From contig JAKPBN010000197.1 in NCBI GenBank assembly GCA_029778945.1, positions 1-49,954 of the forward strand: a stretch of 49,954 nt of DNA, in the 5' to 3' direction. Below, piece after piece: positions 27,052-33,358 of the stretch. The translations under genes and the position numbers were made by a program. Source of the stretch: Spirochaetota bacterium. Its GTDB lineage: Bacteria > Spirochaetota > Spirochaetia > Treponematales > Rectinemataceae. Numbering within the stretch: position 1 is the stretch's first letter; each line of letters opens with the position of its first letter. The notes under the pieces are model-generated. The model was not told the origin of the DNA. It searched no databases and saw only the letters and a program-made list of their open reading frames with translations.

Positions 27052-27222
27052 TTAGATGAAATCGCTCGGGCGGCGCTCGGACCTCTTGCACTTCTCGCAC
27101 TCCGCGAGATTGCGGACCTTGCCGTTCTCAAGGAGGGTCTTCATCTTTATCTCGCCGCCACAGGGGCAATAGAAATGCTGAGTGGCGCTGGCGCTACGAG
27201 AGTTCTTGGATTGCTGTGCCAT
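27052..27222 (-). CDS. Small zinc-ribbon protein (56 aa)
   Basis: Starts MAQQSKNSRSASATQ, with AAGGAG 7 bases before the ATG at 27222; a longer frame upstream has no support. Two cysteine pairs, YCPCGGEI and CEKCKRSE, about 25 residues apart, form a likely zinc ribbon. The protein is basic and otherwise without features. It has its own promoter and terminator. A role with nucleic acid or the ribosome is possible, but I do not recognise the family. Confidence 0.75.
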   Translation of the reverse strand: MAQQSKNSRSASATQHFYCPCGGEIKMKTLLENGKVRNLAECEKCKRSERRPSDFI

Positions 27223-27246
27223 CGGTAACTCCTTCTCTTCGCATGG

Positions 27247-27276
27247 AAGATACCCTAGGATTCCTCGAATTGTCAA
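27247..27276 (-). promoter_or_regulatory. Promoter of the zinc-ribbon gene
   Basis: Minus strand: TTGACA (27271-27276), 18-base spacer, TATCTT (27247-27252). Expected leader of about 18-20 bases. Confidence 0.6.
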
Positions 27277-27294: not shown

Positions 27295-27328
27295 AAAAAA
27301 GACCCCCGGGCAGGAGGATACCCGGGGG
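27295..27328 (-). terminator. Rho-independent terminator of the ParB-like operon
   Basis: Minus strand: CCCCCGGG, 10-base loop, CCCGGGGG, then TCTTTTTT. About 95 bases past the stop of the ParB-like gene. Confidence 0.8.
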
Positions 27329-27422
27329 CCGGAGTCAGGAAAAAGCGAGGAATCGCTAGAAAGCCATGGACCAGGTCCGGCTTTCTTCTAGTGAAACCCC
27401 GGCCAGGCGGGAAGGTTACGGC

Positions 27423-28400
27423 CTAAGGCCGGTTTTTTTCCGGCTCCAGGGGCTCGGGTTCCCGGGGCTTGCCCTGCTTCCTGAAGGAGGCAAGGAGGCG
27501 ATCGAGGATTCCCTGGACGAGGGTCTTAAGTTGGTTTGCCCGGCTTTTGCCATAGACCTGGCCAAAATCCCTGGCCGCCGCGGATACAGAATAGGACAGG
27601 CCATACTTGCGCTTGAGCTCGTCCCAGTATTTCACGATGTAGACATAGAGGTCGCCGGCCGTCCTTCCTGGGAAGCGGGAGAGCAGGCCGAGCTCCATGA
27701 TCGTCGCCTCGATCAGGCGGTAGACATTCTCGTACCAGGAGAAAAGGGCAGCCTCGAAGCTGATCTCCTCGGTCCGGCCCTGGTTGATATAGTACTTGTG
27801 GACGAGGATATGCTCGAGGATCTCCTCGTAGCGGCCCGGGGTGGAAAAGCTCAGGTCCAGATTGCCCGTATGGATCCCAAAGCCCGTCTTTTCATAGAAT
27901 TCCCTTTTTTCGTACTCGATGACTTCCCGCTTGAGCTCCTCGATCGTCATCCCCGGCCTGAGCCTGACCTCGGCGTCCAGGCTTGAGACTTCGGCGTCCA
28001 GGCAGAGCTGGCCCCTGAGCTTGGCCACGGAAACCCGGTGGTTGCCGTCCCGGACAAAATAGACCCCGCCTATCTCATAGAGGCGGACCGGGGGGAGGGG
28101 CACATCGGTGTAATGGGCCATGTCGATCCTGACCCAGCGGCTCTTCAGATAGTCATGGCGGGGCAGGAAGTGGCGGTTAAAGTCCCGGTACCTGCCCTCG
28201 CTGCCCACGATCAGCTTGAGCGGCACCGATTGGAGGCCCGCATAGGTCTCTCCCCCAGGCTTGAGGATGGCCTTTACCTCGTCCAGGGAGAGTAGCCTGT
28301 CCCTGGAGGGGCTGAGGAGGACACCTATCCTGGATAGAAACTCGCGGGTCCGCGCTCGGGAAAAGTCCTCGGTCGCGAGATTCTCGTACCAATCGCTCAC
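27423..28400 (-). CDS. ParB/Srx-fold domain protein of unknown function
   Basis: 325 residues from a GTG that overlaps the phosphoesterase stop (GTGA, 28397-28400), with GAGGAGGG about 7 bases upstream. Around residues 60-130 is a ParB-like core: LKLIVGSEGRYRDFNRHFLPR, then VRLYEIGGVYFVRDGNHRVSVAK, with the DGNHR box at 118-122. There is no ParB helix-turn-helix or dimer domain; residues 140-300 are helical, with many Tyr and Glu, and the C-terminus is basic and Pro-rich. So it is not a chromosome-partition ParB. The fold may bind a nucleotide or act as a nuclease or kinase; which one is unknown. Confidence 0.6.
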   Translation of the reverse strand: MSDWYENLATEDFSRARTREFLSRIGVLLSPSRDRLLSLDEVKAILKPGGETYAGLQSVPLKLIVGSEGRYRDFNRHFLPRHDYLKSRWVRIDMAHYTDVPLPPVRLYEIGGVYFVRDGNHRVSVAKLRGQLCLDAEVSSLDAEVRLRPGMTIEELKREVIEYEKREFYEKTGFGIHTGNLDLSFSTPGRYEEILEHILVHKYYINQGRTEEISFEAALFSWYENVYRLIEATIMELGLLSRFPGRTAGDLYVYIVKYWDELKRKYGLSYSVSAAARDFGQVYGKSRANQLKTLVQGILDRLLASFRKQGKPREPEPLEPEKNRP

Positions 28401-29062
28401 GAAATGCCCTCCTCGGTGTCGATTACCCAATGGCCAAAGGCGTTGAGGACTGTGGTCTCCCCGGTCTCGGTGAGGCGCACATCGGCCAGGTCATAGAGAT
28501 GCACATGGCCATGGATAAACCAGCGGGGCCTTACCGCCCGGATCAGGAGATTGAAGACCCTAAAGCCCCGGTGGCAGGGATCGTCCCGGTCGTGGATGGC
28601 CCTGGGCGGGGCATGGGTCAAGACAATGTCCGCCGCCCGCCCCCGAAAGACCCGGTTCCAGAGGAGTCCGGGTATGAGGGGCAGGATGCGGAGGGCCATC
28701 TGGAATTCCGTGAACTGGTTGGGCCCTTTGTTGTAGCGCATGGAGCCGGGCAGGCCCAGGATGATCAGGCCCTCGGACCGCAGGAGGCGGAAGCCCGCGT
28801 CCATGGCCCCCGACTCGTCCTGGCCCACGGCCTCCGAGGCAAAGCCTCCGACGGATAGCCTGTCATAGTGGGCAAAGCGCCCCAGGTCGTGGTTGCCCTC
28901 CACATAGACGAGGGGCCGGTTGAGCATGGAGGTGATAAAACCCAGGTATTCCATGGGCAGGTCCCCGGCCGCGAGGACCAGGGCCACGTCTCCGTAGCGG
29001 TCCTTGAGCCTCTGGGAATAGACGAGGGGATCAACCTGGTCGGAGACGCAGAGGATCCTCAT
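28397..29062 (-). CDS. Calcineurin-type metallophosphoesterase
   Basis: 221 residues. Metal-binding motifs in order: CVSDQVDP (in place of the usual D-x-H), LAAGDLP, VEGNHDLGR, THAPPRAIHD and HGHVHLYD. The first motif has Asp-Gln instead of Asp-x-His, so one metal ligand is changed. It lies 9 bases after the TPR/Mrr-like gene and overlaps the ParB-like gene. The substrate is unknown; relatives cut phosphomonoesters, cyclic nucleotides or nucleic-acid ends. Confidence 0.85.
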   Translation of the reverse strand: MRILCVSDQVDPLVYSQRLKDRYGDVALVLAAGDLPMEYLGFITSMLNRPLVYVEGNHDLGRFAHYDRLSVGGFASEAVGQDESGAMDAGFRLLRSEGLIILGLPGSMRYNKGPNQFTEFQMALRILPLIPGLLWNRVFRGRAADIVLTHAPPRAIHDRDDPCHRGFRVFNLLIRAVRPRWFIHGHVHLYDLADVRLTETGETTVLNAFGHWVIDTEEGIS

Positions 29063-29071
29063 TCCTGGGTC

Positions 29072-30451
29072 CTAGGCCTTGGAGCCGGGATGTCCCGCCC
29101 GGGTGAGCATCTCCTGGAGCTGTTCCTTGTTAAAAAGCTCGACCGAGCGGTTCTCCGCGAATTCCAGGGCCGGGCGGGCATAGGCCGAGCTCGTGACCAC
29201 GGCCCCCCTCACCACGCCCAGGGTCTTCATCTTTTCGATAAAGCCCCGCAGGACGGCCTCGTCCACGTTTTCCGACAGGCGGAGGAAGCGGATAAGCCGG
29301 GGCTGCTTCTTTGTGCCCAGCCATTTTTCCGAGTCTCCCTCGACGGCGATGATATCCACCCCGCTGGGGATGTCCTCCTTGCCCCGTATCGACAGGCCCA
29401 TGGCCTTCTGCACCGCATTGGCGCAGAGCTCCATGAATTCCTCCTTGCCGCAGGTGAGGTAGTCCTTCATCTTGTCGTCGGTCCGGTATTCCTGGTATTG
29501 GGTGAGCTTTTCCGCCACGTCCCGGAAGGAGGCTTTTTTCTGGTAGATCTTTTCCCACTGCTCTATGGCCTTGTCCAGGTTGCGCTGCTTCTCGTAGCAC
29601 ATGGCCAGGAAATAGCGCCCAAAGAGGGCCTCGTTGGCTCCCTCGTCCTTGACCAGCTTGACCGCCCGCTCGAGCTCGGGGATGGCCTTGTCCAAGGCAT
29701 TCTGGCTCATATAGCAGCCCCCGCGCTCGACCAGGGCCTTGATCTTGAAGGCAGGGTTCCTGGTGGATTTCTCGAAGGCCAGGAGGGCCGGGGTATAGTC
29801 GTTCATCTCCTTGAGGAGCTTTCCAAGGTAGAAAAAGGCCTCAAAGTCATCCGCGTCATACTTGATGGCCAGCTCCAGCTCGGCCTTGGCCTCCATGGGG
29901 TGCTTGGTGCGGTAGAGTATAAGGCCTAGGTGGTGATGGGCGGCGGCGAGCTTGGGGTCGAGCTCGATGGCCTTGCGAAGATAGCCTATGGCCACATCGG
30001 TCCGGCCCCGGCCCTCGAAGAGCTTGCCGGCCTGGAGGAAGTTGCCAGCCCCCCGGGGATCGAGCTTGGTGAGGAGTATGAGCTCCTTGAGGGCTTCCTC
30101 GGTCTGGTTAAAACGCTCATAGAGCCCGGCTATGCGCGTTCGAAAGGCCACCTCGGAGAGCTCGGGGCCAAACTGGCCGATCTGGCCGACGTGCTTGAGC
30201 TCCATGAGGGCCAGCTCGGGCTTTCCGTCCGCAAGATAGGCCTCGGCCAGGAGCCAGTGGGCCTCGCCGTTCCTGGGGTCCTTGGCGATGAGGGCCTTGG
30301 AGGAACGAATGGCTACCGCGACTCGTCCCTGCTTGAGCTGCTCGGCCACCGCCTTGGTATGGCGCGGGGTAGCGACCATGCGGATGATAAACCAGCTCAA
30401 GAAGGCGACGGCCACGCCGAGAATCATGATGAATATCACGACGAATGACAT
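29072..30451 (-). CDS. Membrane-anchored TPR protein with C-terminal Mrr-like domain
   Basis: 459 residues. One N-terminal membrane segment (about 4-26, VVIFIMILGVAVAFLSWFIIRM), then at least six TPR units from about 35 to 330 (for example AGLYERFNQTEEALKELILL, HHLGLILYRTKHPMEAKAEL). Residues about 345-455 look like the restriction-endonuclease (Mrr_cat) fold: GVDIIAVEGD, RLIRFLR, then GVVRGAVVTSSAYARPALEFAENRSVELFNKEQLQEML, which matches the typical end of Mrr-like domains. The usual catalytic (Q/E)-x-K is not seen, so it is probably a degenerate binding domain. First gene of the operon with the phosphoesterase and ParB-like genes. Confidence 0.7.
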   Translation of the reverse strand: MSFVVIFIMILGVAVAFLSWFIIRMVATPRHTKAVAEQLKQGRVAVAIRSSKALIAKDPRNGEAHWLLAEAYLADGKPELALMELKHVGQIGQFGPELSEVAFRTRIAGLYERFNQTEEALKELILLTKLDPRGAGNFLQAGKLFEGRGRTDVAIGYLRKAIELDPKLAAAHHHLGLILYRTKHPMEAKAELELAIKYDADDFEAFFYLGKLLKEMNDYTPALLAFEKSTRNPAFKIKALVERGGCYMSQNALDKAIPELERAVKLVKDEGANEALFGRYFLAMCYEKQRNLDKAIEQWEKIYQKKASFRDVAEKLTQYQEYRTDDKMKDYLTCGKEEFMELCANAVQKAMGLSIRGKEDIPSGVDIIAVEGDSEKWLGTKKQPRLIRFLRLSENVDEAVLRGFIEKMKTLGVVRGAVVTSSAYARPALEFAENRSVELFNKEQLQEMLTRAGHPGSKA

Positions 30452-30601: not shown

Positions 30602-31330
30602 ATGCCAGCCCCCACAGGCCGCCTCCGGGCCCTAGCCTTCCTCGCCTGCCTTTTCCTGGCCCTGCCCCTCATTGGAGAACAGGCCGGGGGGGGCGACTTT
30701 GCCGAGGGGGAGCGCCTCTTCCGGGAGGACAAGCCCAAGGACGCTGCCCTAGTCCTCGAGCGGGCCGTCACCCAGGCCGGGACCGACGAGAGGGCCTGGC
30801 TCTACCTCGCGGCCTGTTACGAGGAGCTGGGGCGCTATGACGAGGCCGTCAATGTCCTCCGCAAGGGCTCGGGCCAGTCCCTCCGCTTCAAGCACCTCTT
30901 CCTCTACAATATGGCCAACGCCTTTGTCCTCCAGGGCAAGAACTCCTTTGCGGAGGAGATGTACGGCCAGGCCCTGGCGGCCAACCCGAGCTACGCCCCG
31001 GCCCTGCTCAACCGGGCCAACGTCCGCATTATCCTGAAGGACTATCCCGGGGCCAGCTCGGACTATGGATCCTATCTCAACCTCGAGCCGGCCTCTCCCC
31101 AGAGACCAGCCATCGAGGCCCTGCTAGCCCGGCTGAACGCCGACCTCCAGGCCCAGGCAGCCCAGGCCCAGGCCGAGGAAGAGGCCCGAAAAGCGGCAGA
31201 GGCCGCCCGCCAGGCCCTCCTGGCCTCGGTCACAGCCTCCCTCAAGGCCGCCGCCGAGGAGACGACCAGCCTCTCGGCGGGCTCCGGCGCCGTCCAGGGC
31301 TATGGGGATGAGCTCGTCCTCGACCAATAA
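30602..31330 (+). CDS. Secreted TPR protein
   Basis: 242 residues, with GGAGAATCAGG before the ATG. Residues 1-26 are a signal peptide (LRALAFLACLFLALPLIG), with no lipobox cysteine. About three TPR units follow (FAEGERLFREDKPKDAALVLERA, AWLYLAACYEELGRYDEAVNVL, ANAFVLQGKNSFAEEMYGQAL). Residues 175-215 form an Ala/Glu/Gln helix, then a Ser/Gly tail. Probably a periplasmic scaffold. It is followed after 27 bases by a larger TPR gene on the same strand, so the two are likely an operon. Confidence 0.8.
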   Translation: MPAPTGRLRALAFLACLFLALPLIGEQAGGGDFAEGERLFREDKPKDAALVLERAVTQAGTDERAWLYLAACYEELGRYDEAVNVLRKGSGQSLRFKHLFLYNMANAFVLQGKNSFAEEMYGQALAANPSYAPALLNRANVRIILKDYPGASSDYGSYLNLEPASPQRPAIEALLARLNADLQAQAAQAQAEEEARKAAEAARQALLASVTASLKAAAEETTSLSAGSGAVQGYGDELVLDQ

Positions 31331-31357: not shown

Positions 31358-33358
31358 ATGGAAGCGCGCAAGAAAATTCTCCTAGGTGCCGGAGTCCTCG
31401 TGCTGGCCCTCGCCCTGGCCGGGGCCGGCTACCTGGGCATCACCTCCGGGGCCCGCAAGGCGGAAAAGACCCGGACCAATGTCCTCACCCTTGCCAGGGA
31501 CTATATGGACCGGGGCTCCTATGACAGGGCCCTGGACCTCCTGGACAAGCTCCTCATAGAGAACGCCGGGGACGCCGAGGCCCGGGACCTGCGGGACAAG
31601 GCCGTGGAGGGCCAAAAGGCCGCGGCCCAGGCGGCGGAGCAAAGCCAGGCAAAGGACCAGAGCGCCCTGGCCAAGAGCCTGGACAAGCTCGGCCAAAAGC
31701 TCCAGACCCCGCCCCAGGGCGGCTCCGCAGGCTCGGCCGCCGCCCAGGCCGCGGCCGCCAAGGCGGCAGACGCCGCGGCCGCCAAGGCGGCAGACGCCGC
31801 GGCCGCCAAGGCGGCGGAAGCCCAGGCCAAGAAGGCCGAGGACGAGGCCCGGCGCAAGGCCGAGGCCGAAGCCGAGGCGGCCAGGAAAAAGGCCGAGGCC
31901 GAGGAGCTCGCCAAAAAGAGCCGGGCCCTCCAGGACGCGATGAAGGCCGTGAGCGAGCTTGTGGACAAGGGCAAGACCGCCGTGGACAAGGGGGACATCC
32001 CCGCCGGGGAGGACCTCTTTGACAAGGCCAAGTCCGCCTTCCCCGAGGGCGAGGACCGCTTTGCCGGCCAAAAGCTCGCGGAGATGGCCGATGCCTTCTA
32101 CTCGGGCTCCAAGAAGCTCTCGGGTCCCCCTTCCGACCAGGCGCTCAAGGACTCCATCCAGACCGCCCGGGACGCCAAGAAAAAGGACCAGACCAACCCC
32201 ATGCCCTGGTATACCCTGGGCAAGATCAACGCCGACCTCAAGCAGACGGACAACGCGATAGCCGAACTCAAGGAGGCCGCCCGCCTCGATCCCCGCAACT
32301 ACCTCTATGCCTACGAGCTCGGGAAGGCCTATTTCAACGCCCGGCGCTACGAGGATGCCCGCCAGTCCTTTGAGGCCGCCTCGACCCTCAACCCCAAGTT
32401 CGAGCTGGCCTTCTACAACCTGGGCGTGACCTGGAAGGCCCTCGGGGACTCCGCCAAGGCGAGCGCCACCTTCCGCAAGGCCGTCCAGGTCAAGCCCGAC
32501 TACGGCCGGGCCTGGCAGGAGCTGGGCCGCATCCAGGCCGCCTCGGGGGACCAGAAGGCGGCCATCGACTCCTTCTCCAAGGCCATCCAGTTCGAGCCCA
32601 CCAACGCCGGCGCGATGCGCGAACTCGCTGTCATCCAGGCCGGCTCGGGCCAGCTCAAGGAGGCCGAGGCCCTCTTTACCCGGGCCCTCGGGGTCTCGGA
32701 CGACGCCCAGACGAACTACAACATGGCCACGGTCAAGCTCAAGCTCGGCAAGGGGGCCGAGGCCGTCAAGTACGCGGAAAAGGCCGCCTCCCTCCAGGCC
32801 CAGACCGCCCTCTACCAATACACCCTGGGCCTGGCCTACGAGGCGGCGGACAACGCCGACGGGGCGATCGCGGCCTATACCAAGGCCGCCTCCCTGGACA
32901 AGAAGTATGTCGAGCCCCGAGTCAACCTGGGCCGGGTCTACCTCGACTCAGGCTTTGTGGACAAGGCCCTGGCCTTCCTCGTGGAGGCCTATGCGGCCGA
33001 TCCGCGGTCCTTTGAGGCCAACAACAACCTGGGCAACGCCTATGGCAAAAAGGGCCTCTTTGAGAAGAGCGTCTTCCACTATGAGGCCAGTCTCCAGCTC
33101 TCTCCCCGGGACCCCACGGTCAGGCTCAACCTGGCCAGGGCCTACGTCTCCGCGGACCAGAAGGACCGGGCCAAGGCGGCCTATTCCGAGCTCATCAAGC
33201 TGGCCCCCCAGGCCTGGGACGCCTACTACGAGCTGGGCAAGCTCCTCTATTCCCAGGGGGATGGCTCGGGGGCCAAGGAGGCCTTCACGAGCCTCCTCTC
33301 CAAGAATCCCTCCTATCCCAAGAAGGACGAGATCCAGGGCCTCCTCTCCAAGCTCTAG
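31358..33358 (+). CDS. Large TPR protein with Ala/Lys coiled coil
   Basis: 666 residues. An N-terminal membrane segment or uncleaved signal lies at about 6-28 (ILLGAGVLVLALALAGAGYL). After one TPR-like hairpin comes a long Ala/Lys/Glu helix (about 85-195) that includes three AAAKAADA-type repeats and a KAEAEAEAARKKAEAEE stretch, recalling TolA-like periplasm-spanning helices. From about 255 to the end there are around ten TPR units. Probably anchored in the inner membrane with its TPR array in the periplasm. Its stop codon shares four bases (CTAG) with mutL, which converges. Confidence 0.8.
   Translation: MEARKKILLGAGVLVLALALAGAGYLGITSGARKAEKTRTNVLTLARDYMDRGSYDRALDLLDKLLIENAGDAEARDLRDKAVEGQKAAAQAAEQSQAKDQSALAKSLDKLGQKLQTPPQGGSAGSAAAQAAAAKAADAAAAKAADAAAAKAAEAQAKKAEDEARRKAEAEAEAARKKAEAEELAKKSRALQDAMKAVSELVDKGKTAVDKGDIPAGEDLFDKAKSAFPEGEDRFAGQKLAEMADAFYSGSKKLSGPPSDQALKDSIQTARDAKKKDQTNPMPWYTLGKINADLKQTDNAIAELKEAARLDPRNYLYAYELGKAYFNARRYEDARQSFEAASTLNPKFELAFYNLGVTWKALGDSAKASATFRKAVQVKPDYGRAWQELGRIQAASGDQKAAIDSFSKAIQFEPTNAGAMRELAVIQAGSGQLKEAEALFTRALGVSDDAQTNYNMATVKLKLGKGAEAVKYAEKAASLQAQTALYQYTLGLAYEAADNADGAIAAYTKAASLDKKYVEPRVNLGRVYLDSGFVDKALAFLVEAYAADPRSFEANNNLGNAYGKKGLFEKSVFHYEASLQLSPRDPTVRLNLARAYVSADQKDRAKAAYSELIKLAPQAWDAYYELGKLLYSQGDGSGAKEAFTSLLSKNPSYPKKDEIQGLLSKL
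31751..31822 (+). repeat. Three tandem 24-bp repeats inside the TPR gene
   Basis: The unit begins GCGGCCGCCAAGGCGGCAGA and encodes AAAKAADA. Copies one (31751-31774) and two (31775-31798) are identical; copy three (31799-31822) differs by a few bases and encodes AAAKAAEA. It is in frame, so copy number may vary without breaking the gene. Confidence 0.85.

Follow-up and report, generated by a model that had tools for sequence, protein, structure and literature searches.

Orphan proteins of the ParB-CTPase fold (PMC12704722) represent a recently recognised broad class of NTP-binding modules for which few partners have been identified. They combine the ParB/sulfiredoxin (ParB/Srx) fold and a GxxR Box II with a lineage-specific fused domain, and they lack the ParA-binding motif, defined as (L/F/I)G(K/R)G(L/F/I) (PMC12704722). 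The ParB-like protein of the locus reported here resembles these orphans in each of these features, but its fused domain is a DUF4032-like helical one and its gene is paired with that of a calcineurin-like metallophosphoesterase (MPE). A term search of the main text of PMC12704722 revealed no mention of a phosphoesterase. The free serine kinases SbnI and SerK share with the ParB-like protein the fold and the DG(N/V)HR motif, and in the spirochaete core family a Glu may fall at the same offset; however, the ParB-like protein has another C-terminal domain, the Glu is not conserved in non-spirochaete members, and a kinase role would be putative. Sulfiredoxin is similar in fold (Z 7.0, rmsd 3.0, 81 aligned residues), but the catalytic Cys of its G-C-H-R motif is replaced by Asn in the ParB-like protein. 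The MPE has the fold (Z 14–18) and most metal ligands of the MPPED2/aq_1956/Dbr1 class, but it is shorter and the first-motif His is missing. The C-terminal motif region of the ParB-like protein resembles DUF4032 (PF13224), with weak matches in 17 of 19 members (best E 1.1e-5), while the protein of the window itself remained under the curated cut-off (13.6 vs 23.8 bits). The third gene of the locus, TPR-Mrr, encodes a domain matching the Mrr_cat fold (PF04471; E 1e-9, residues 336–449), but its (E/Q)xK motif is replaced and the domain is fused to TPR repeats and a membrane anchor. Among the papers searched, neither a description of the MPE/ParB-like pair nor a paper on DUF4032 was found, in line with the preliminary description, which knew of no described system with this set of genes.

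The window, the whole stretch of 49,954 nucleotides that was analysed, carries the three genes on the minus strand, transcribed in the order TPR-Mrr, MPE and ParB-like and followed by a strong intrinsic terminator (Table 1) with a hairpin of -29.8 kcal/mol (z -5.0). A 9-base gap between TPR-Mrr and MPE, a 4-base overlap (GTGA) between MPE and ParB-like, and the operon's own terminator were all found as previously claimed. The ORF tool placed the ParB-like start at the TTG codon; the GTG codon is the likely start, since a Shine-Dalgarno-like GAGGAGGG lies upstream and homologues start near this position. Residue numbers of the ParB-like protein given below count from the TTG start. A small Cys-rich protein is encoded just 3' of the operon terminator, and two TPR protein genes are divergent from the operon, the second of which contains an Ala-rich repeat stretch AAAKAADAAAAKAADA. 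Homologues of the first and the second TPR gene could be observed in 52 and 48 of the compared loci, respectively; thus, this divergent arrangement is itself conserved.

Table 1. Features of the operon and its immediate surroundings in the window
Feature	Position	Strand	Remarks
TPR-Mrr gene	29072..30451	-	459 aa
MPE gene	28397..29062	-	221 aa
ParB-like gene	27423..28400	-	325 aa from GTG 28400; 335 aa from TTG 28430
Intrinsic terminator, operon end	27301..27330	-	hairpin (27330-27301), then TTTTTT
Small Cys-rich protein gene	27052-27276	-	74 aa
Promoter-like site	27276-27247		
Terminator-like site	27034-27004		
First divergent TPR protein gene	30602-31330	+	
Second divergent TPR protein gene	31358-33358	+	

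A search of 296 Spirochaetota genomes revealed the ParB-like gene in 110, the MPE gene in 114 and both genes in 108, the latter distributed over 25 families. The Fisher test of this co-occurrence yielded a p value of 1e-70, which is overstated because genomes were treated as independent, and the 25-family count is the fairer measure. The two genes were neighbours in 94 of the 108 genomes carrying both (22 families), hence the arrangement is far beyond chance. They were not adjacent, yet both retained, in 14 genomes (9 with the genes on separate contigs and 5 on the same contig, among the latter one single-contig genome with a distance of 1.2 Mb between them); this retention points to a functional tie beyond hitch-hiking. 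Among the GTDB loci found via the ParB-like gene, the MPE gene adjoined it in 79 of 80, with gaps of -30 to 208 bases. These 80 loci were picked by the GSEGRY and DGNHR motifs; therefore, motif conservation was scored on the other 53 loci only. The genomic neighbours outside the pair differed widely among loci, and no gene conserved everywhere alongside the pair was found in the compared loci. The MPE and ParB-like genes appear to be one deeply conserved functional unit.

The TPR-Mrr gene did not share this pattern. The Mrr-domain search gave matches in 203 of the 296 genomes, and TPR-Mrr directly adjoined MPE in 63 genomes, which represent 10 families, with all three genes together in 57. It was missing beside the pair in many lineages, including many termite-gut Treponema loci, and it was kept in the 1.1-Mb genome G056, from which both MPE and ParB-like are absent. 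Owing to this far wider spread, the patchy adjacency and the occurrence alone in G056, TPR-Mrr does not belong to the core but is a partner that the class Spirochaetia either acquired or retained, and the three-gene set was rejected as an obligate unit. Accordingly, of the set of three families that had been described from the window, the near-perfect coincidence of MPE and ParB-like stood, while TPR-Mrr proved to be no equal member. The TPR-Mrr protein consists of an N-terminal hydrophobic stretch MSFVVIFIMILGVAVAFLSWFIIRMV, predicted to be a membrane anchor, followed by TPR repeats and the C-terminal Mrr_cat-fold domain. The signalling at the membrane that had been suggested in the preliminary description would depend on this predicted anchor and is putative. 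In an alignment with true Mrr proteins of relatives, which carry QxK (QAK, QVK), none of the 26 TPR-Mrr rows had the catalytic (E/Q)xK. The nuclease-fold domain proposed earlier for this protein is thus present as a fold, but a nuclease role is unlikely, as the motif is lost in every sampled TPR-Mrr. A second TPR-Mrr paralogue occurs in the genome that holds the window (G000:C500:3002-3313; L191), and its Mrr domain is likewise without QxK.

The ParB-like protein gave no match to PF02195 (ParB_N) or any other Pfam ParB family, and a PDB sequence search with this protein alone returned no matches. Its AlphaFold2 model reached a mean pLDDT of 88.8, and residues 61–156 of the model matched Srx, SerK, SbnI, Noc and ParB in the structure comparison at modest scores (Z 5.4–7.0). 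The domain profile matched a nucleoid-occlusion/ParB structure (E 8e-4), SbnI (0.004) and sulfiredoxin (0.011). The predicted ParB/Srx fold was confirmed in this way, and both the profile and the structure comparison were needed to establish it. No HTH family, such as the parS-binding domain, was present among the Pfam matches of 19 members, and inspection of the translation did not reveal the ParA-binding motif. A ParB/Srx fold without the parts needed for partition, as the preliminary description had it, was therefore borne out, and identity as a ParB partition protein was rejected. The ordinary ParB of the genome, encoded on another contig (C341), is the sole PF02195 match in the genome, and no DUF4032 was found above threshold in this genome. 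The GSEGR and DGNHR motifs, within GSEGRYxDF and DGNHRxS, were invariant in 53 of the 53 loci that were not motif-selected. The DGNHR sequence fits the GxxR Box II of the NTP-binding members of the fold (PMC12704722). Sulfiredoxin identity was rejected, as GNHR lacks the catalytic Cys of GCHR in all core members. A phage origin was also rejected, with no phage record matching the ParB-like protein and no match in PHROGs, as was a known anti-phage defence system, for which PADLOC reported the MPE alone under the generic candidate model PDC-S10.

The MPE matched the calcineurin-like phosphoesterase family (Pfam PF00149) with an E value of 2e-7 and a score of 32.1 bits (cut-off 21.5), and the AlphaFold2 model (mean pLDDT 86.4) revealed a standard calcineurin-like fold. 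The family match and the predicted fold agree, which upholds the calcineurin-type assignment made at first sight. The best structure matches, at Z 14–18, comprised aq_1956, TT1561, MPPED2, PptH, Mre11 and Dbr1. The conserved residues were D8, D34, N57, H58, H150, H186 and H188, so that the full ligand set (D-x-H, GD, GNH, H and GHxH) is present except for the first-motif His. Position 10, where this His would be expected, is V in the window protein, I or V in most homologues and never His. The MPE might be weak or inactive, given that the DxH histidine is missing throughout.

Decay of the MPE site could be observed in the genomes that lack the ParB-like gene. In five T. denticola-like genomes of one genus (g3), which we take to be the T. 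denticola group, TPR-Mrr and MPE are present and ParB-like is absent. Exactly these five ParB-like-less genomes carry N57S (GNH) and H186Q (GHxH) in the MPE; N57 and H186 are predicted metal ligands and, by the numbering customary for the superfamily, coordinate the second metal. Among the 138 loci with both genes, every residue of the ligand set that falls inside the aligned stretch was unchanged. At locus L044, the MPE gene directly precedes the gene that follows ParB-like at loci L088 and L110. Because the five T. denticola-like genomes are close relatives, the decay of the MPE site in them may be a single event.

The same MPE/ParB-like pair occurs in two further phyla, in Tsukamurella, Collinsella and Cetobacterium. 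The Tsukamurella pair is located on a plasmid with an 11-base overlap, the Cetobacterium pair has an 8-base gap, and in Collinsella the gene order is reversed with a 4-base overlap. The Collinsella ParB-like protein is fused to a PnrA/BMP domain of the nucleoside-binding type, and such fusions could also be found in the spirochaete family f45. Fusions of this kind (L135:4784-6922, L136:6345-8369, L137:4505-6427 and L134:9270-11186) have no obvious export signal before the ParB part. Other arrangements include two ParB-like paralogues in tandem, about 415 aa long and with a second DUF4032-like stretch (L036:6301-8915, minus strand), in family f42 a ParB-like gene immediately 3' of what looks like a parA-parB pair (L034:4605-7283, plus strand), and the C-terminal DUF4032-like domain as a standalone protein of about 140 aa (L048:6056-6493 and L050:6415-6822).

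Based on the co-inheritance, the co-localisation, the conserved sites and the decay of MPE where ParB-like is absent, the best reading is that MPE and ParB-like form a nucleotide-dependent phosphoesterase module, with a probability of roughly 0.45. The ParB/Srx domain would bind an NTP through the GxxR (DGNHR) phosphate motif, and the helical DUF4032-like domain would be the likely docking or effector part. The MPE, of the binuclear type with an incomplete first metal site, would cleave a small phosphoester, probably a nucleotide-like one, and its hydrolysis would make sense solely with the ParB-like protein present, possibly in physical contact. The ParB-like protein may either gate the MPE according to the NTP level or produce a phosphorylated product that is turned over by the MPE. 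In the class Spirochaetia, TPR-Mrr would join the module as a scaffold anchored in the membrane, its Mrr fold being catalytically dead. We hold somewhat more tentatively that the pair is a two-protein nucleotide/metabolite sensing switch conserved in at least three phyla, in which the dedicated MPE is controlled by the ParB/Srx-fold protein or reverses it, with spin-offs that have the ParB-like part fused to a cytosolic PnrA/BMP ligand-sensing domain.

The main rival to this reading, an unlikely one though deserving of weight, is a kinase-phosphatase pair in which the ParB-like protein would be a SerK/SbnI-like kinase of small molecules or proteins with Glu78 as the general base, and the MPE the opposing phosphatase. 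SbnI and SerK are kinases of the ParB/Srx fold (PMC12704722). E78 does not vary in any of the spirochaete core loci (53 of 53), and the offset seen in five structural alignments (61 to 13, 64 to 16 and so on) would place it at SerK Glu30, the residue named as E30A/E30Q in the titles of those PDB entries; the SbnI offset places it at residue 20. However, this correspondence is given by the offset and not residue by residue, and the HMM alignment to SbnI has gaps in this region. Moreover, the pairing persists without the Glu outside spirochaetes, where the segment reads GSVDR in Tsukamurella, GTVEK in Cetobacterium and GTVTK in Collinsella. As Glu78 is not kept in these distant members though the pairing is, the function common to all members is more readily read as nucleotide sensing than as kinase catalysis.

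Distinctly less probable is an accessory module of sugar or cofactor metabolism, in which the pair would adjust how a carbon source or vitamin is taken up or phosphorylated. Several neighbourhoods are consistent with it: the Tsukamurella pair lies amid a sugar ABC transporter, UgpC and alpha-amylase, the Cetobacterium pair follows a TrmB regulator and glycogen phosphorylase, and the L036 paralogues are flanked by a GH13 amylase gene and a TrmB-type regulator. In addition, a Phos_pyr_kin/PfkB-family kinase is encoded downstream in 35 loci (cluster c6), and NadA and NAD kinase flank the pair in L033, L035 and L039. These neighbours, however, change between lineages, and none of them is present in the window. 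Nucleic-acid processing, in which the MPE would be a Dbr1-/Mre11-like nuclease and ParB-like and TPR-Mrr its partners that bind DNA or RNA, is equally improbable, as the profile match to Dbr1 (E 0.0016), the structural Z of about 14–15 to Dbr1 and Mre11 and the Mrr fold of the third gene are set against equal or higher scores of MPPED2, aq_1956 and other small MPEs, the small size of the MPE (about 220 aa) and its lack of domains for capping or lariat recognition, the lost Mrr active site and a ParB-like protein without HTH.

The strictly co-inherited MPE, with an active site that decays without the ParB-like gene, provides a concrete handle on one branch of the orphan ParB-fold proteins. The MPE and the ParB-like protein are two small soluble proteins and can be assayed. 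If true, the two-protein nucleotide/metabolite sensing switch would be a bacterial module without earlier description, present in at least three phyla.
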